NCBI GenBank assembly: GCA_001792535.1
Contig: MGGS01000004.1
Span: 1-34,419 of the forward strand
DNA length: 34,419 nucleotides
Direction: 5' to 3'
From: Candidatus Woesebacteria bacterium RIFCSPHIGHO2_02_FULL_42_20
GTDB taxonomy: Bacteria > Patescibacteriota > Microgenomatia > UBA8517
The notes under the pieces were generated by a model. The model was not told the origin of the DNA. It worked only from the letters and a program-made list of their open reading frames with translations, and did no database searches. A program made the position numbers and the translations under genes. The stretch's first letter is position 1; every line of letters starts with the position of its first letter. Below are positions 786 to 34,419 of the stretch, in pieces.

Positions 786-1658
786 TCAGACTTGGCAATT
801 AGGGCAAACATACGTACCGCGGCCGGAGAGGAAATACTTGGTAAATTTTACACCTATCTGTCGGCAGGCAGGTCGCGGACATAGCGTGCCTTCTTTTCCA
901 TAAGCCAATGTGTAATTTTGGTAACTCCCTTCTTGACCGTCGGGAGTCACAAAAGCTAACTCACTCGCACCTCCGTACTTTACCCCCTCTTTCAAAACTT
1001 GGTGTATTGCACCATATAACTTCTTTATTTCCTCGTTTCCTAATTTCTTACTTTCTTTTTTAGGGTTTATTCCTGCCAACCAGAGCGCGTCGTTAGCATA
1101 AATATTGCCTACCCCACCCATTTTGGACTGATCCATTAACACCACTTTGACAGCTCTTTTTGTTTTTGCCAAAACTCCCTGAAAATACTCATAAGTAAAA
1201 GGTTTACCCTGAGCGGAGCCGAAAGGCTCCGGGCCAAGCTTGCCTACAAAACCAGACGTTTCCACCTCGGCAGTTTTGATGACTTTTATCCAGCCAAACC
1301 GCCGCACGTCGTTATAGTACAAAAAGCCGCCATGATCTAGCTTAAAAATTACGTGAGTGTGCTTGCCTGGAACTCCACCCGTCACTTTTTGGGATATGGT
1401 TGAAACTTTAGGTAAATTCGGGCCTCGATAAATGAGTTGTCCAGTCAGCTTTATATGAATTACGATCGAGTATCCACTCGAAAGATCAATCGCTAGTACT
1501 TTTGCAAAACGGCGAATACTTTTGATTTTAGCGTTTAGAACTTTATCTTTCTCTAGTTCGTATTTCGGATTTCGGATTTCGATATTAATTATTTTATGTC
1601 CCACCAGATATTTCTGGAGCTGTAACTTAATACTTTCTACTTCTGGCAATTCCGGCAT
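786..1658 (-). CDS. mutM: Formamidopyrimidine-DNA glycosylase
   Basis: N-terminus MPELPEVESIKLQL (start moved to the MPELPE Met), QSKMGGVGNIYANDALW, C-terminal zinc finger region CPRPAC…CPNCQ. Confidence 0.93.
   Translation of the reverse strand: MPELPEVESIKLQLQKYLVGHKIINIEIRNPKYELEKDKVLNAKIKSIRRFAKVLAIDLSSGYSIVIHIKLTGQLIYRGPNLPKVSTISQKVTGGVPGKHTHVIFKLDHGGFLYYNDVRRFGWIKVIKTAEVETSGFVGKLGPEPFGSAQGKPFTYEYFQGVLAKTKRAVKVVLMDQSKMGGVGNIYANDALWLAGINPKKESKKLGNEEIKKLYGAIHQVLKEGVKYGGASELAFVTPDGQEGSYQNYTLAYGKEGTLCPRPACRQIGVKFTKYFLSGRGTYVCPNCQV
854..873 (-). repeat. Family A palindromic element in mutM
   Basis: CCTGCCTGCCGACAGATAGG (minus strand), 19/20 identical to 3731-3750. Confidence 0.7.
1198..1226 (-). 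repeat. Family B element in mutM
   Basis: Minus strand CCTTTCGGCTCCGCTCAGGGTAAACCTTT: 24-bp period with CCTTT duplicated. Confidence 0.6.
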
Positions 1659-1720
1659 ACATCCGATTATTGCAGATTTGGACACTGATTTCACTGGTTT
1701 AAAGACTAATTGCTAAAAGA

Positions 1721-2095: not shown

Positions 2096-3192
2096 ATTTT
2101 AGTTGAGATAAAATCTTTTATCTCCTTTTCAAACCTCTCCTTTGAAAATTTTTGGGCTTGAGTAACACAGTCAGACGATTTGATTTCCAAAGTGTCAAAC
2201 TGTTTTATTGCGCGAGTAAGACTTTTAACTGATAATTCATTAAAAAATACACCTGTCTTTTTGTCGACCACCGTCTCCTTTACCCCCCCTGATTTATAGG
2301 CAATTACTGGAGTTCCTGATGCCATGACTTCGACCGGAGTAATGCCGAAATCTTCTGATTCTGAACAAGATATATATGCTTTTGCTTGTCCCATCGATTC
2401 CCGCTTTTTTTCTTCCGCTATTTCTCCCAAAAACTCCACAGTTGGCCCTGCAAAACTTTTTAGTTCTTTTTTATACCCTGCAAAACTTTTGCCAAAGACT
2501 TTTAGTGGCAAATTCAGTTTTGTGCAAGCAGCAACGGCCAAGTCAAAGCGTTTGTTTCTCGCCAAACGTCCCCCGGTAAGGTAATAGTTACCCTTCTTTG
2601 TTGTATGTTCTTTGTTGTATGTTCTGACATCAACCGGTGGGTAAATTACTTGCGAGTCGCGGCCATAAAACCTCTTAATACGATAGGCAACCTCTTTTGA
2701 GTTGGCAATATAATAGTCAACATTTTTTGAGGCCAAGAAATCCAGCTTTCTACCAAGGACTATGAACAATGAACCAATTACTTTCAGTATTCCCCTATTC
2801 CAGTTTCTCGCAGTCTTGTATCCGTAAATATAGCGCGGCGGGGTATGGCAGTAACAGATCAACTTGGCACGGCCTTTATTTACAAAATTTGGGAAATATG
2901 CACCTGTTGCCGAGGTAATCACGACGTCATATCCGTCAAAATTCATGAGCTTAAAAATCAAGGGCGAAATCATAGTAATCGGACCGATAAGTTTTTGTTT
3001 AAATGGCAAAAATTGCAACTTTGAAGGCCTTATGTCAGCATCGTTAAATTTGCCACGATTTGGACCGAGATACTCAGGCAGATAAACAGTAGTATAAATA
3101 GGCGCCTGGGGAAACATTTCATGAAGTGTCCCTAAGACTCCCTCTGCCCCGCCGTATTCTTTTAAATAATCATGTACTAAAGCTACTCTCAT
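2092..3192 (-). CDS. Glycosyltransferase family 4 (group 1)
   Basis: MRVALVHDYLKEYGGAEGVLGTLHEMFP … EDFGITPVEVMASGTPVIAYKSGGVKETV. Confidence 0.9.
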   Translation of the reverse strand: MRVALVHDYLKEYGGAEGVLGTLHEMFPQAPIYTTVYLPEYLGPNRGKFNDADIRPSKLQFLPFKQKLIGPITMISPLIFKLMNFDGYDVVITSATGAYFPNFVNKGRAKLICYCHTPPRYIYGYKTARNWNRGILKVIGSLFIVLGRKLDFLASKNVDYYIANSKEVAYRIKRFYGRDSQVIYPPVDVRTYNKEHTTKKGNYYLTGGRLARNKRFDLAVAACTKLNLPLKVFGKSFAGYKKELKSFAGPTVEFLGEIAEEKKRESMGQAKAYISCSESEDFGITPVEVMASGTPVIAYKSGGVKETVVDKKTGVFFNELSVKSLTRAIKQFDTLEIKSSDCVTQAQKFSKERFEKEIKDFISTKI

Positions 3193-4145
3193 ATCAGCTC
3201 CATCTGTTTTTCTTTTTTAAACCTTTCCCCCACTTCCTTGGCTCTTCGAGTCAATGTCATAAAGCCAAATTCAGCAAACGTTTCCAGCACATTCTGGCCA
3301 TCCAGTTGCCAGCGGGACATTTCGTCAGCACTAAATTCTATCGGAACGTTCCTAACAATTCTGGCAAGCTTCAAAGACAACTCACCACTTTTTCTTCCAT
3401 TGATAAGTTTTTTTCTCACGGATTCTTTGACATCATCCAGATATTTGTAAATGTTCTCGAATCTTTTGTATTTAGCAAGAAGTCTCTCAGCAGTCCTGGG
3501 GCCAATTCCGGGAACTCCAGGATAATTATCGGACTGGTCCCCCACCAAAGCTTTATAGTCAACAATCCTCTCCGGAGTGACACCCATTTTTTCAACCACT
3601 CCACTTCTGTCGTAAACTTTGCCTTCCGACAAACCCTTCGTAGGCAAATAAACACCGACTCTTTCATCGACAAGCTGTAAAATGTCACGGTCACCGGTAA
3701 CGATGACTACGTCAGTAATTAGTGATTTGCCCTGCCTGCCGACAGGTAGGTGATGACTAGTGATTTGTAAAGAGATTGTACCAATGATATCGTCGGCTTC
3801 AAAACCGGCCTTGGAATAAACCGGGATTTTCATCGCTTCAAAGACTGCCTGTGCTTTTTCAAACTGCGAGCTTAATTCTCGGTCCATTTCCGGCCGATGA
3901 GCTTGGTAGGCTTTAAACTCCTTGTGTCTGAATGTCGGCTCTTTGCGGTCAAAAGCAACGGCGATGTGGGTAGGTTTAAAGTCAGTAATAATTTTGAGAA
4001 GCATTGAAACAAGGCCGTAAACAGCGTTAATAGGCTCTCCGCCTCGCGTGGTCAAGGGAGGAAGAGCGTGATACGCCCGATGCATTATGGCATTGCCGTC
4101 AATAAGAACTAACTTTACTTGTCCTGAGCTTGCCGAAGGGTCCAT
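3189..4145 (-). CDS. 5'-3' exonuclease (PolA N-terminal domain type, no polymerase domain)
   Basis: VKLVLIDGNAIMHRAYHALPPL, GFEADDIIGTIS, VIVTGDRDILQLV, DQSDNYPGVPGIGPRTAERLL. Confidence 0.9.
   Translation of the reverse strand: MDPSASSGQVKLVLIDGNAIMHRAYHALPPLTTRGGEPINAVYGLVSMLLKIITDFKPTHIAVAFDRKEPTFRHKEFKAYQAHRPEMDRELSSQFEKAQAVFEAMKIPVYSKAGFEADDIIGTISLQITSHHLPVGRQGKSLITDVVIVTGDRDILQLVDERVGVYLPTKGLSEGKVYDRSGVVEKMGVTPERIVDYKALVGDQSDNYPGVPGIGPRTAERLLAKYKRFENIYKYLDDVKESVRKKLINGRKSGELSLKLARIVRNVPIEFSADEMSRWQLDGQNVLETFAEFGFMTLTRRAKEVGERFKKEKQMELI
3731..3750 (+). repeat. Family A palindromic element in exonuclease gene
   Basis: CCTGCCTGCCGACAGGTAGG; flanked by TAGTGATTTG direct repeats (3720-3729, 3758-3767). 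Confidence 0.7.
4118..4143 (-). repeat. Family B element immediately after the exonuclease start codon
   Basis: Minus strand GGACCCTTCGGCAAGCTCAGGACAAG. Confidence 0.65.
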
Positions 4146-29084: not shown

Positions 29085-29753
29085 ATGGAAAACAGCGATC
29101 CAGCAAACTACAGCCCTATCAAAGTCGATCCTGTGCCGGAACAACTCTCCCCGACCGAACAGAAGCTTATCGATAAACTGTTTCCAAAAGTAAAACCCGA
29201 AGTCAGACCTTTAATTTTACCCGGAACGCTGCTTGTCGTTATATCAATTCTCGCCATTGGGTTAGTTTTGATTGCAAATAAGCCACGAAAAGTCAGTCAG
29301 CAGCCAACCAGTGTCCCGATCCCCACAGCCGAACCAACACCCTCACCAATCTCAACCACGGACTGGCAAACTTATTCAAACTTTGGAATCGAAATCAAAA
29401 CTCCTCCCACTTGGTCTGATCCTGAAACCAGACTCGGTGCCACCTTTACCAGTTTGAAATTTAAGTCCACATTTGCAATAGACATTAAGGGTGAGCGTTT
29501 CGATGAAAACAGTTTTAACGATTATATCGAAAACTATTCTCAAGCGGTAAAAACCAGACCCGAAGACGTAATTATGGGAAACAAGCCAAGCAAAAAATTT
29601 GATGTAGTAACTGGCGTCGATACAGACAGAATCGAAATTTTTACCTACAGCGAAACTCCTCCTCTATTAGTAAAAATCTCTTACGACAACCTTTGGAACC
29701 CGGAAATAACTAATATCAATCAAATCCTCTCCACTTTCAGATTTACAAAATAA
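29085..29753 (+). CDS. PsbP-like domain membrane-anchored protein (paralog 1)
   Basis: TM + Pro-rich linker + WQTYSNFGIEIKTPPTWSDP … ITNINQILSTFRFTK. Confidence 0.65.
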   Translation: MENSDPANYSPIKVDPVPEQLSPTEQKLIDKLFPKVKPEVRPLILPGTLLVVISILAIGLVLIANKPRKVSQQPTSVPIPTAEPTPSPISTTDWQTYSNFGIEIKTPPTWSDPETRLGATFTSLKFKSTFAIDIKGERFDENSFNDYIENYSQAVKTRPEDVIMGNKPSKKFDVVTGVDTDRIEIFTYSETPPLLVKISYDNLWNPEITNINQILSTFRFTK

Positions 29754-29768
29754 TTAGCTTAGTACACG

Positions 29769-29777
29769 TGATATAAT
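29769..29777 (+). promoter_or_regulatory. Extended -10 promoter element
   Basis: TGATATAAT, 6 nt before ATG 29784. Confidence 0.5.
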
Positions 29778-29783
29778 GGGTTT

Positions 29784-30140
29784 ATGGGAATAACAACAAT
29801 CCCGGTAACGCTTACGGATCTAACTGAAAAGAAAAAAGTAAACGCTGATTTTCTGGTCGACACAGGCGCAAGTTATACCGTTGTACCGGCCAGATTTGCA
29901 AAAAAACTCGGGTTAAAAGTCGATAGAAAACAAAAATTCAGTCTGGCAGATGGAACTATCATGGAAAGAGGTCTAGGATTTGCTGTTGTCGAAATTGAAG
30001 GTAAAAAAGCACCGTCCACAGTTGTTATCGGAAAGGAAGGAGATTCTCCGCTTCTTGGTGCCCTGACACTAGAGAATTTAGGACTCATGGTTGACCCTTT
30101 CAGCCGAAAACTTCGCCCCATGAAGTTAATGCTGGCCTAG
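29784..30140 (+). CDS. Clan AA aspartic protease-family protein
   Basis: ADFLVDTGASYTVVPARFAKKLGL … PLLGALTLENLGLMVDPFSRKLRP. Confidence 0.8.
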   Translation: MGITTIPVTLTDLTEKKKVNADFLVDTGASYTVVPARFAKKLGLKVDRKQKFSLADGTIMERGLGFAVVEIEGKKAPSTVVIGKEGDSPLLGALTLENLGLMVDPFSRKLRPMKLMLA

Positions 30141-30214
30141 TCCAAAAACGATGTCCTGACTGTCCCGGATAGGTAGTGGGCAAAGATTGGTGTAAAAAAC
30201 AGCACAAAAGAGCC

Positions 30215-30251
30215 TTGACAGCAAACATATTGAGTGTTATGGTGTATACAC
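30215..30251 (+). promoter_or_regulatory. Promoter with overlapping palindromic operator of a TA module
   Basis: TTGACA 30215-30220, 17-nt spacer, TATGGT 30238-30243; perfect palindrome GTGTATACAC 30242-30251 just before ATG 30253. Confidence 0.55.
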
Positions 30252-30252
30252 T

Positions 30253-30525
30253 ATGATAAGTCAACTTACCAGAATTCAAGTTTATGTCGAACCGAAGAAT
30301 CTCGCGGTCGTAGATGAAATTGCAAAGGAAATCAAAATAAAAAGGTCTCAAATAATTAGAGATGTTGTTGCTAGTGTCGTAAACTCTTACGTAAAAACGG
30401 CCCAACTTTTAAAGATAGATAAAATAAATAATCTTAAAACATGGCTTGAACTCAAGGGAGCCGAGGAGAGTAAACTCAAGGATTTAGGTTTAAGAGTCGA
30501 TGAGATCTACAATGCAACTACCTAA
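30253..30525 (+). CDS. RHH-like antitoxin
   Basis: TRIQVYVEPKNLAVVDEIAKEIKIKRSQIIRDVVASVVNSYV. Confidence 0.7.
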   Translation: MISQLTRIQVYVEPKNLAVVDEIAKEIKIKRSQIIRDVVASVVNSYVKTAQLLKIDKINNLKTWLELKGAEESKLKDLGLRVDEIYNATT

Positions 30526-30943
30526 AAGAGTATTCATTGACACGAGTGCCTGGATTGACTTCACTCTCAAAGGCGAAAAGTATCATCGAGAAATTTCTGA
30601 ATATCTAATCTCAGAGGTCAAAAAAGGAAGTAAGTTTTTTACCAGTGACTACGTATTAGATGAGACGTTTACAAGATTGATTACTGGCCAGAGTTTTGCG
30701 TCTGCAAAAGTTCTCAAAAATAAAGTTAGGAAGTTAGAGAAAGAAAAACAACTTTTGGTACTCTGGACAGACGAAGTGTTTTTCAACAAGGCCTGGGAAT
30801 ATTTCGAAAAATTCTCAGAACACAAACTATCATTTACCGATGCCACAATTTATACGTTCGCGAAAGACTTAAAAATTAACGAGATTCTAACCCTGGACAG
30901 GGGGTTTGAGAAAGTGGGGTTAACTGTACAACCGAAGCTCTGA
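30512..30943 (+). CDS. PIN-domain toxin, VapC-like
   Basis: RVFIDTSAWIDFTLKGEKYH … KLSFTDATIYTFAKDLKINEILTLDRGFEKVGL. Confidence 0.88.
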   Translation: MQLPKRVFIDTSAWIDFTLKGEKYHREISEYLISEVKKGSKFFTSDYVLDETFTRLITGQSFASAKVLKNKVRKLEKEKQLLVLWTDEVFFNKAWEYFEKFSEHKLSFTDATIYTFAKDLKINEILTLDRGFEKVGLTVQPKL

Positions 30944-30961
30944 AATTTTAAAATAAATTTA

Positions 30962-31702
30962 GTGGATAAAAAACTAAAAGGCTTTGCCGCATTCAGTTCA
31001 CTACGGAGCAGCTCACATGCTCGTAGTTCACATGAACGTGGCTTTGCACATGTTCTGATTTTGATTGCGGTTGTTTTAGTTCTTGCAGTCGGAATCGCCG
31101 CGTCTTCGGGTGCGCTCAGACCCCTATACTCCCCCACCATAAATCCATCCCCTAGTTCTAACGATTACGACAAAAAAATAATTGAGGTTGTACTTAACAT
31201 AAAAACACAGCTCTCTGAATCTTCGTTAACCATCAACCAAAACGGAGAGGTCAAATATTGGGCTAGATACTTAAACAGGAAAATGCCAGATATAATTGAA
31301 ACAGGTACTTTTTCTGATGAACAAATGAAAAAACTGACTGAAAAAATTTTTGAAAATAATTTCTTCTCCATGCCCGAAAGGCCTTATAATCCTAAAACTG
31401 ACCCTATCGGCGGATCCTATTACTATCTGACCGTTAAATACTTTCCAGGTGACCCTTTAGAACCGATGTTCCCTTCCCAAAAGACCGTTTACTGCTACGA
31501 GTTTAATTGCGAAAAGGGCTTTCTGGAAATCAAAGATGTGATAGTTAGCTTTTGGGGAAAAGAAGTCCTGGAGGTCGAAGTTTGTAAGACAGATTCCGAT
31601 TGTCCTCAACCTGACTGCGCTGTGGGTCCGGATGAAAAACCAGTCGGTAACTGTCCCTATTACATCTGCCAGCAAGGACAATGTGTGCCAAAGTATTACT
31701 GA
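30962..31702 (+). CDS. Exported protein with pilin-like N-terminus and cysteine-rich C-terminus
   Basis: GTG start; RGFAHVLILIAVVLVLAVGIAASSG; C-terminus CKTDSDCPQPDCAVGPDEKPVGNCPYYICQQGQCVPKYY. Confidence 0.65.
   Translation: MDKKLKGFAAFSSLRSSSHARSSHERGFAHVLILIAVVLVLAVGIAASSGALRPLYSPTINPSPSSNDYDKKIIEVVLNIKTQLSESSLTINQNGEVKYWARYLNRKMPDIIETGTFSDEQMKKLTEKIFENNFFSMPERPYNPKTDPIGGSYYYLTVKYFPGDPLEPMFPSQKTVYCYEFNCEKGFLEIKDVIVSFWGKEVLEVEVCKTDSDCPQPDCAVGPDEKPVGNCPYYICQQGQCVPKYY
30980..31047 (+). repeat. 60-bp in-frame insertion flanked by 8-bp direct repeats
   Basis: GGCTTTGC at 30980-30987 and 31040-31047; interior contains CTACGGAGCA…TGCTCGTAG and GTTCACATGAAC inverted repeats. Confidence 0.6.
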
Positions 31703-31724
31703 TCAAAGTTGTATACTAATCATA

Positions 31725-32678
31725 ATGAAAGAGGCAAGTCAACCTCCAAGCAATCAAACACCGACTGAGCAAGTCCCTAAACCGACTCCCCCACCTGCTT
31801 CGTCCCCAATCAAACCCCGGATTGTTTTAAGCGTCGTTCTGATGGTATTTTTACTCAGTTTAGTTACGTTTACCTTTGTGCGTGCTCTACGATTTAACAG
31901 TCAGGTTAAAAATCAAATTCCCTCACCTCAAACGACAAAGATCTCAACACCGACCCCAGATCCCACTGAAAACCAGGTACCGAATGGTAACCTGGAAAAC
32001 TGGAAAACATACCAAAACCAAATTGTGAATTTTCAATTCAATTACCCGGATAACTGGATAATAAATAGCAACCCTGACCAACTTTACGTGAGCGTATACA
32101 AAAGCAAACCTTATATTAATCAATTTCGAATCCAAGCTCGCGATAAAAGCACTTGGTCTACTAATTACACTCTGGATCAAATAGCTTCCGAATTAAAACA
32201 CTGGGAAATATTTTCCACTGCTTTTTGGGGAGATGCTGATCCCAAGGAAGAAAGTCAAGAAACGATAAATATTGGAAATGTTAAGGCAATCAAGTTTATT
32301 TATAAACTCAACGATCCCGGCTTGACATTCAATCATATAATGTGGATTGTTACAACTTATGGGAATTATGTTTTAACTATCAGTGCCGCAGGAGAAGACA
32401 TAGATACCTTAAAGCAAATCCTCTCCACTTTCAGGTTTTTGGACAAAAGTAATCCATGGGATAAATCAGTTTGTGGAAATAAAATATGTGAGCCGTGTGA
32501 AAATGAGTGCTGCAACTATCCGTGCAGCACCGATAATAATGGTCAAGAATATTGCCCACCCCCAGTTTGTTTGGGACGCTGTCCTCAAGATTGCCGGCCT
32601 GGGCAAGAAATAGAATGCGAAGAAGGATATATCGAAGTCTGCGAAGGTGGCTTGTGTGATTGTCTAAAGGCAAATTAA
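31725..32678 (+). CDS. PsbP-like domain protein with cysteine-rich C-terminus (paralog 2)
   Basis: TM + linker + NLENWKTYQNQIVNFQFNYPDNW … KQILSTFRFLDKSN + CGNKICEPCENECCNYPC…; TATACT 7 nt before ATG. Confidence 0.65.
   Translation: MKEASQPPSNQTPTEQVPKPTPPPASSPIKPRIVLSVVLMVFLLSLVTFTFVRALRFNSQVKNQIPSPQTTKISTPTPDPTENQVPNGNLENWKTYQNQIVNFQFNYPDNWIINSNPDQLYVSVYKSKPYINQFRIQARDKSTWSTNYTLDQIASELKHWEIFSTAFWGDADPKEESQETINIGNVKAIKFIYKLNDPGLTFNHIMWIVTTYGNYVLTISAAGEDIDTLKQILSTFRFLDKSNPWDKSVCGNKICEPCENECCNYPCSTDNNGQEYCPPPVCLGRCPQDCRPGQEIECEEGYIEVCEGGLCDCLKAN
31968..32011 (+). repeat. 44-bp palindrome-containing repeat, copy 1
   Basis: 42/44 identical to 33947-33990; CCAGGTACC-gaat-GGT(A)ACCTGG hairpin. 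Confidence 0.75.
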
Positions 32679-32719
32679 GCCCATGACTAAAAACTCAAAA
32701 GGGGTTCTAAACTCAATTC

Positions 32720-33700
32720 ATGAATAATTTTATCAAGCCTACTAAAACTAAGGTTTTTATAACCATCGTTTTGTTTCTTATTGGGTTTGTCTACTCCTTC
32801 GTTCTTTCACACATCTCATTTACAGGCGACACAACCAGATATTTACTCATCGCTGATCTGCTCCTGGGACCAATCTATTTCCTGAGTAACTATCTAAAAA
32901 ACCTTATTATTCTTATTCCAATATGGCTTTTGTACGTTTACCTGTTTACTTGTTCAATTGTCTATCTTGGCCACGTTCCCCGACCCCGGCTTCGCTTTTT
33001 GCCTTTTATCCTGATTACCTTCATCTCTCTCTTGTTCGCATTTCTGAATAGTGATTTTAAAATCCCGCCTTCTTCTTCAGCCCGGCAATGGCAAACTTTC
33101 ACCGACCACGGAATTGAAATAAGAATTCCCCCTCATTGGTCTAAGCCAAAAATTACCAAAGCAACCGCACTTTCAACCACTATGGAGTTCAACGTCGGTT
33201 TGACTATTGAAACCAAACTCCAATATTTAGATGATAATAGTTTCAATATTTTAATAGACGAATACTCAAAATCTATAAATAAATCACCTGATGAGATAAA
33301 TCTAGGGCAGGTTACGGGCAAAAGATTTTTCATCCAAACCAGTGTAGACACCGATAAAATTATCATCTTTGCTAAAGGAAGAAACATCTGGGTAGTAATT
33401 TCTTATCCCAACCTCTGGAATCCGGAAATAAATACCATTGATCAAATCCTCTCCAGTTTCAGGTTTTTAGATACGTCAGACGAAAATGAAGCCAGAAGGA
33501 AAAGTTGCGAATCTGCACAAGGGTATTGGCTGGAAGAATACAACGAATGTGCATCGCCCGGAGGAAACTATTTCAAAGCTGGTTATGATGAAGAGTGTCT
33601 GAAGCTGGGAGGAAAATTTCAGGACTGTGTATCACCATGCAGACATGATCCCAACCCAAAATATTGCCCAGAGGTCTGTGTGCAAGTCTGTAAATTTTAA
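32720..33700 (+). CDS. PsbP-like domain membrane protein with cysteine-rich C-terminus (paralog 3)
   Basis: Multiple TM then RQWQTFTDHGIEIRIPPHWSKP … TIDQILSSFRFLDTSD + cysteine-rich tail. Confidence 0.65.
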   Translation: MNNFIKPTKTKVFITIVLFLIGFVYSFVLSHISFTGDTTRYLLIADLLLGPIYFLSNYLKNLIILIPIWLLYVYLFTCSIVYLGHVPRPRLRFLPFILITFISLLFAFLNSDFKIPPSSSARQWQTFTDHGIEIRIPPHWSKPKITKATALSTTMEFNVGLTIETKLQYLDDNSFNILIDEYSKSINKSPDEINLGQVTGKRFFIQTSVDTDKIIIFAKGRNIWVVISYPNLWNPEINTIDQILSSFRFLDTSDENEARRKSCESAQGYWLEEYNECASPGGNYFKAGYDEECLKLGGKFQDCVSPCRHDPNPKYCPEVCVQVCKF

Positions 33701-33703
33701 AAC

Positions 33704-34419
33704 ATGACCAAAAACTCAAAAGGCTCTATTTCTTTTTTAAAAGAAATTCAGAATGTTTGTTCTTCGAGCATTATCCATAAATTGTGGTTGGGATCTGTAA
33801 TATTCAGAGTTGCGATATTTATTTTTGGTGTTACACTGCTACTTTTTTTTCTGATTTCAATTACGATACTTAAGGGTTTCCAATCTGCCCTTCTCACGCC
33901 CCCACAAACATTTACAGCGATCCAAACTCCCACAATCAATCCTACAGAAAACCAGGTACCAGATGGTAACCTGGAAAACTGGAAAACATATACAGACTTA
34001 AAATGGAAATACCAAGTCAGTTACCCTGCAAGTTGGGAGGAACCAAGAGAAACTCATCCAGTCTCCGATTACACTGTGGGGTTCATTAGTTCTGACAGAG
34101 ACAGTAACACCTTTAAAGCCGAGACTCCTGGCGCACCCACCTACGTTCTATATATTACTGTCTACCGGAAAACAAAATCTACGCTGGAAGAAGAATCCAA
34201 ATTGAGGGGGGCAGAAGTTCCCCAATGCGCTTTGGGTGACCCGTGCCCACCCTTCCCACCAAAAGAGATAATCAAAAAATCAAACAGCCGATTCAAGGAA
34301 TACTATTCTGTCTTAACCTCGAGCAACTTAAAACATACCATCATCCCTCTACCATCCGACGACCGGTATTATGTAGATATTTGGACTTGGTACACATGGC
34401 CCGAGAACGATTCGGGTCT
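33704..34419 (+). CDS. PsbP-like domain membrane-anchored protein (paralog 4), truncated by window end
   Basis: MTKNSKGSISFLKEIQ…, TM, NPTENQVPDGNLENWKTYTDLKWKYQVSYPASWEEP…; open to window end. Confidence 0.6.
   Translation, partial: MTKNSKGSISFLKEIQNVCSSSIIHKLWLGSVIFRVAIFIFGVTLLLFFLISITILKGFQSALLTPPQTFTAIQTPTINPTENQVPDGNLENWKTYTDLKWKYQVSYPASWEEPRETHPVSDYTVGFISSDRDSNTFKAETPGAPTYVLYITVYRKTKSTLEEESKLRGAEVPQCALGDPCPPFPPKEIIKKSNSRFKEYYSVLTSSNLKHTIIPLPSDDRYYVDIWTWYTWPENDSG
33947..33990 (+). repeat. 44-bp palindrome-containing repeat, copy 2
   Basis: 42/44 identical to 31968-32011. Confidence 0.75.

Follow-up and report, generated by a model that had tools for sequence, protein, structure and literature searches.

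A family of probably mobile DNA hairpins of about 25 bp and the 60-bp in-frame insert of a protein leader in Candidatus Woesebacteria

The locus and its question

How a protein leader may come to contain 60 bp of additional DNA, enclosed by two identical 8-bp sequences and compatible with the reading frame, is the question raised by one gene of the window, i.e. the whole stretch of 34 419 nucleotides analysed here (contig C4 of a 1.08-Mb Candidatus Woesebacteria genome in 18 contigs). The octamer GGCTTTGC is found at 30980-30987 and again at 31040-31047, with a spacing of exactly 60 bp, as pointed out in a previous sequence-only reading of this DNA, and the enclosed segment does contain the inverted repeats mentioned there, namely CTACGGAGCA/TGCTCGTAG (31001-31010/31018-31026, with one bulged G) and a second one, GTTCACATGAAC, at 31026-31037. 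The open reading frame (ORF) crosses the insert, being translated as KLKGFA-AFSSLRSSSHARSSHERGFA-HVLIL, which confirms that the addition is in frame (table 1). However, the 8-bp duplication alone is unremarkable because the window contains 84 exact 8-mers with a second occurrence at a distance of 20-80 bp (approx. 39 after shuffling), two of them spaced by exactly 60 bp. The significance of the insert rests on the family of hairpins to which it belongs, and not on the 8-bp repeat. Folding of the 121-nt insert region is somewhat more favourable than that of shuffled sequence (z = −2.7), and an Rfam search of the window returned nothing at the insert site.

The insert had been placed in a pilin-like leader. 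It does lie in a leader, but a Pfam search of the host protein yielded 0 matches, N_methyl included, and the protein (RGFAHVLILIAVV) lacks Glu5, which together with an N_methyl match would identify a type IV prepilin. It is pilin-like in the leader only and is not a canonical pilin. No orthologue was recognisable in its genus and family (50 family genomes), so that the empty site, which the sequence-only reading proposed to seek in related genomes, is available for other prepilins (see below) but not for this gene.

The surroundings of the insert consist of a local cluster of paralogues (29670-34026), probably exported, with starts MTKNSKG and endings ILSTFRF. Directly upstream, a small ORF and, after it, an ORF with a PIN domain (30253-30943) resemble a toxin-antitoxin pair. 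The insert had also been described as a third unrelated repeat family behaving in the same way, and this holds insofar as other in-frame repeat peptides exist in the window. A different palindromic repeat, CCTGCCTGCCGACAGGTAGGTG, is found in frame at 3731-3752 within a 5'-3' exonuclease gene (ORF 3189-4145, reverse strand; peptide HHLPVGRQGKS) and also at 851-872 (ORF 786-1694, reverse strand), in the zinc-finger end of formamidopyrimidine-DNA glycosylase (CPRPACRQIG). The repeat-like peptides PFGSAQGKPF and MDPSASSGQ, encoded in the same two ORFs (786-1694 and 3189-4145), probably derive from yet another dispersed in-frame repeat family.

Table 1. Features of the host gene and proposed parts of its insert (window coordinates).
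Feature	Position	Strand	Description
Host ORF	30962-31702	+	GTG start, 246 aa, protein beginning VDKKLKGFAAFSSLRSSSHARSSHERGFAHVLILIAVVLVLAVG
Host leader			...KGFA(insert)HVLILIAVVLVL, then cysteine-rich domain; probably exported, without Pfam match
Outer target-site duplication, left copy CTTTG	30982-30986	+	Family target-duplication rule; apparent repeat GGCTTTGC
Outer hairpin, left arm CCGCATTCA	30987-30995	+	Two changes with respect to family arm CCACGTTCA
Inner target-site duplication, left copy TTCA	30997-31000	+	In outer loop GTTCACA; predicted by family rule
Inner diverged hairpin CTACGGAGCA-GCTCACA-TGCTCGTAG	31001-31026	+	26 bp with a single bulged G; ACGAGCA...TGCTCGT-type stem variant
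Inner target-site duplication, right copy TTCA	31027-31030	+	30 bp from left copy; predicted by family rule
Outer hairpin, right arm TGAACGTGG	31033-31041	+	Exact family arm
Outer target-site duplication, right copy CTTTG	31042-31046	+	60 bp from left copy

A family of small hairpins in Microgenomatia

The suggestion to look for the interior of the insert elsewhere proved well founded, as it is present on another contig of the same genome (C6), in G048, a genome from the family to which this organism belongs, and at more than 100 other loci. The hairpin family has the 25-bp consensus CC ACGTTCA-GTTTACA-TGAACGT GG, with a 9-bp stem and a conserved loop. A covariance model built from four copies matches 74 of 374 sampled Microgenomatia genomes, a single genome having as many as 14 copies and that of the window 5 matches; only three matching genomes of a phylum-wide sample of 380 are outside this class, and one of these matches (L131) exhibits a clean target duplication, CAGCG. 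A degenerate pattern with two free stem positions per side detected 74 sites in 40 of the 374 genomes as opposed to 1 site for the reversed pattern used as the control, and the free positions were complementary in approximately 70 of the 74 (variants TT/AA, AT/AT, AG/CT and CT/AG). The stem base pairs vary in a compensating fashion and the loop is conserved; pair counts came from a set chosen for pairing, and the degenerate-pattern search is the fairer test of covariation. A census of hairpins with stems of at least 8 bp in all of the fetched DNA, which is enriched for copies, found the loop GTTTACA in 56 of 149.

As for individual copies, a 22-bp stretch of the insert recurs on C6 in the leader VVSGFARSSLHERGFVLILIL, where GGCTTTG is repeated 30 bp apart, and in G048, where the leader reads NKNSKGLATFSLHERGFVHLFLL, the DNA forms the perfect hairpin GCCACGTTCA-GTTTACA-TGAACGTGGC. 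These two copies sit in related exported proteins (common NKNSKG start and ILSTFxF ending), and therefore one insertion may be common to both by descent. The same hairpin is found outside leaders in G050 and in G054, in the latter directly upstream of the 23S rRNA gene. Near-exact occurrences of the 20-bp right half of the insert are found in other contigs and genomes; an exact 19-mer scan of 85 462 genomes returned only a Candidatus Woesebacteria record (MGGJ01000006.1), whose leader sequence matches that of G048, and a chance-like Holosporales match. Viral contigs gave 2 matches. The matches at L007, L013 and L014, with unrelated reading frames, were discarded as chance. On contig C15 of the window's genome (L049), the copies at 805 and 2648 have flanks that are identical over more than 40 bp and were therefore copied within a longer repeat rather than inserted twice.

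Outside leaders, copies occur in both orientations, in intergenic and in coding DNA, and by Rfam they fall within or next to 23S rRNA, 16S rRNA, group I introns, group II D1D4, cobalamin and FMN riboswitches, RNase P RNA and tRNAs. One loop of the group I introns of several genomes holds the hairpin, in the opposite orientation in G352. Four copies are found in a single 23S rRNA gene of G148 (L067, 680-3746), two of them within its group I intron.

Target-site duplications

Direct repeats of at least 5 bp flank 39 of 111 copies, compared with 7.9 (maximum, 14) expected when the right flanks are permuted, and in 37 of the 39 their spacing, referred to a loop of 7 nt, corresponds to 29 or 30 bp. 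Position-wise tests led to the rejection of duplications of 6-8 bp in favour of 4-5 bp, with the duplication located immediately outside the 25-bp element. With this definition, an exact 4- or 5-bp direct repeat abuts the hairpin in 43 of 128 copies (expected from permuted flanks, 2.7), namely 35 copies with a 4-bp repeat (expected, 2.4) and 8 with a 5-bp repeat (expected, 0.3), the maxima in 1000 permutations being 8 and 2, respectively. The targets include TTGA, CTTG, TCAA, CCTG, CGGG, TTTA and CTTCG, with complementary end bases in nearly all of them. In 28/43 and 24/43 cases, the base outside the duplication is identical to that at the opposite end of the element, and the apparent repeat is therefore longer than the true duplication. 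The 85 copies of the 128 without an exact abutting repeat are either old, or have moved or been fixed differently inside RNA loops. The element, whose 25 bp are all inverted repeat plus loop, combines terminal inverted repeats with target-site duplication as a MITE does. Insertion would take place at short Y-N-N(-N)-R sites, the ends of which are often complementary and the flanks of which match the ends of the element, with duplication of 4 or 5 bp.

Structure of the 60-bp insert

The outer part of the insert reads CC GCATTCA - GTTCACA - TGAACGT GG, with CTTTG on each side, and, with the nested insert set aside, CCGCATTCA-GTTCACA-TGAACGTGG is matched by covariance model R1 (E 1.3e-6). It has the stem and the GTTTACA-like loop of the family (NYACRNNCA / TGN'N'YGTRN), the inner part being a diverged variant. 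The abutting repeats are CTTTG for the outer and TTCA for the inner element. The CTTTG target appears as the 8-bp GGCTTTGC because the CC..GG ends of the element match the bases adjacent to the target (3 bp). Thus, the perfect 8-bp target duplication claimed in the sequence-only reading is retained as a target duplication, the true length of which, by the family rule, would be 5 bp, complemented by 3 bp of end matching.

The DNA is inserted, as had also been claimed, but most likely as two nested 30-bp insertions rather than one of 60 bp. The GTTCACA loop of the outer element, also present in two own-genome copies on C15, contains TTCA, two copies of which are found 30 bp apart, and two 30-bp additions therefore make up the 60 bp. 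The outer element would have entered CTTTG, and a second, diverged element would then have entered its loop at TTCA. It is doubtful, on the other hand, that a single 30-bp hairpin insertion was enlarged by two extra 15-bp tandem duplications with no nested insertion, the units being AGTTCACTACGGAGC, AGCTCACATGCTCGT and AGTTCACATGAACGT (SSLRS/SSHAR/SSHER). The sum is correct (60 − 30 = 2 × 15) and units 2 and 3, aligned in register, share 80% identity, but units 1 and 3 agree at only 8 of 15 positions and the second half of unit 1 is complementary to unit 2. Furthermore, the TTCA repeats flank the inner hairpin, its loop (GCTCACA) resembles that of the family, and its stem variant, ACGAGCA/TGCTCGT, is known from other copies and present as a free copy in G342; nesting is also observed at L054 (duplication CTTCG) and probably at L149. 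The inner hairpin is diverged and could originate from a decayed tandem duplication, although this would account for the hairpin less well than two nested insertions do.

Prepilin leaders as a landing site

At least six copies of the hairpin occupy, in frame, the G-F-T/A site of type IV prepilin leaders recognised by Pfam, i.e. EGLATFSLHERGFTLLEILL and EGFTTFSLHERGFTLIELLL in G065, KGFTTFSFHERGFTFIEV in G357, KGFATFSFHERGFTLIEL in G177, HGFTTFSLHERGFTLIELL in G366 and, in reverse orientation, KGSTTFMKTERGFTLLEILL in G113. All six proteins match N_methyl, five of them above the cut-off (L024, second protein; L033; L037; L099; L101). Related prepilins of G113 and G065 have the hairpin at one and the same site, with opposite orientations. 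Leaders free of the insert are present in the G222 orthologue of the G113 prepilin (77% identity; MKKLLPNERERGFTLLEI) and in relatives of the G357 prepilin, e.g. those of G312 and G308 (MRGFTLIEL; MRKLKTDRGFTFIEI). In the G214 orthologue of the G113 prepilin, the corresponding position is occupied by a different repeat (EGLALSERSESNGFTLLEI). This leader (L167) contains the unrelated repeat GGGCTTGCC-CTGAGCGAGCGAAGCGAGTCGAAT-GGGTTTACC, translated as LSERSESNG, at the Gly-Phe target, which suggests that the hot spot is common to several families of elements.

Prepilin peptidase cuts at the Gly-Phe site. The target codons for Gly-Phe-(Thr/Ala) are GGY TTY RCN, and the duplication (of GGYTTT) rebuilds G-F-(T/A) after the new residues, typically TFSLHERG. 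Insertions stay in frame as 25 + 5 = 30 bp, and leader processing would survive since the motif is rebuilt. The family also accounts for unusual additional peptides, such as TFSLHERG, that occur in leaders of Microgenomatia exported proteins and may mislead both the annotation of genes and the prediction of signal peptides. In a broader reading, to which we lean with only modest confidence, self-nesting mobile hairpins of approximately 25 bp, among the smallest transposable units known, are spread throughout the class, and their target rule (4-5 bp with palindromic ends that agree with those of the element) makes type IV prepilin leaders a natural landing site, because duplication regenerates the Gly-Phe cleavage motif and keeps the frame.

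Mobility of the hairpin

That the insert belongs to a family of mobile DNA hairpins of about 25 bp, which duplicate their target and have repeatedly used prepilin leaders in frame, is considered highly probable, movement being deduced from comparison across genomes represented by single assemblies per species, and not between strains. Duplications of 4-5 bp are typical of staggered cutting by DDE-type enzymes. We infer that the hairpin would be moved by an enzyme acting in trans; an RNA-mediated route, as debated for the GC clusters of yeast (PMC4478555), may be considered by analogy. With more than 100 copies, clean target duplications, variant stems, a footprint fixed at 29-30 bp and a hot spot within one protein motif, both the choice of target and the mobilising enzyme are directly testable.

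A Y1 transposase (IS200/IS605, RAYT-type) acting on the hairpin as a REP-like sequence is an improbable mover. Y1_Tnp (PF01797) is found in 66 of 74 element-bearing genomes as compared with 180 of 300 others (odds ratio 5.5, uncorrected for kinship), but it has no match in the genome of the window or in G181, which has 14 copies; moreover, neither a GTAG-type nor a CGTC tag is present in the consensus, and IS200/IS605 transposition makes no larger target duplications (PMC2817692). More improbable still is a conserved element with a function as RNA or DNA (e.g. a translational control hairpin near start codons or a protein-binding site) that was spread by recombination. The conserved loop, the compensating stem changes and the location of several copies near the starts of exported-protein genes would be in keeping with it, but the contexts are unrelated (rRNA, introns, riboswitches, intergenic and coding DNA), both orientations occur, and the direct repeats differ from site to site with a fixed spacing. 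Finally, chance or an assembly artefact at a single site, for which only the frequency of 8-bp repeats at such distances in the window would speak, has a negligible probability in view of the near-exact recurrence of the 20-bp right half in other contigs and independent genomes and of the family statistics (74/374 genomes; 74 sites versus 1; 43/128 versus 2.7).

Comparison with known systems

The literature searched contained no account of such an element from Patescibacteria. Mobile palindromes of very small size have been suspected in cyanobacteria and in the mitochondria of fungi and sponges. Among the closest known systems, the small dispersed repeats (SDR) of cyanobacteria, from the work of Elhai et al. 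in 2008 (Genome Res 18:1484; cited in PMC3116915), are reportedly 21-27 bp long, thought to be mobile and found in structured RNA genes, e.g. rnpB. The Microgenomatia hairpin is likewise very small, dispersed, thought to be mobile and found in structured RNA genes, but its hosts belong to another phylum; the target duplication rule, the prepilin hot spot and nesting are described here for the Microgenomatia family.

REP/REPIN sequences with their RAYT transposases are also small dispersed bacterial palindromes, of 20-40 bp, but REPs are extragenic, usually present in high copy number and mostly GTAG/CGTC-tagged (PMC2817692, PMC3116915), whereas the hairpin family is low-copy, intragenic as well, untagged and associated with 4-5-bp duplications. 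Rickettsia palindromic elements share with it the palindromic character and the in-frame insertion into protein-coding genes of unrelated function (PMC10969869); however, they are approximately 150 bp long, unlike the hairpin of approximately 25 bp, which also resides in rRNA, introns and riboswitches. The GC clusters of yeast mitochondria (PMC4478555) and other mitochondrial hairpin elements (RHE; PMC2800124) are, like the hairpin, short mobile palindromes with short flanking direct repeats and merging of units. In contrast with GC42 of yeast mitochondria, which has 42 nt and AG or ACT flanks (PMC4478555), the hairpin has 25 bp and variable 4-5-bp duplications, and is bacterial and often in frame in one protein motif.
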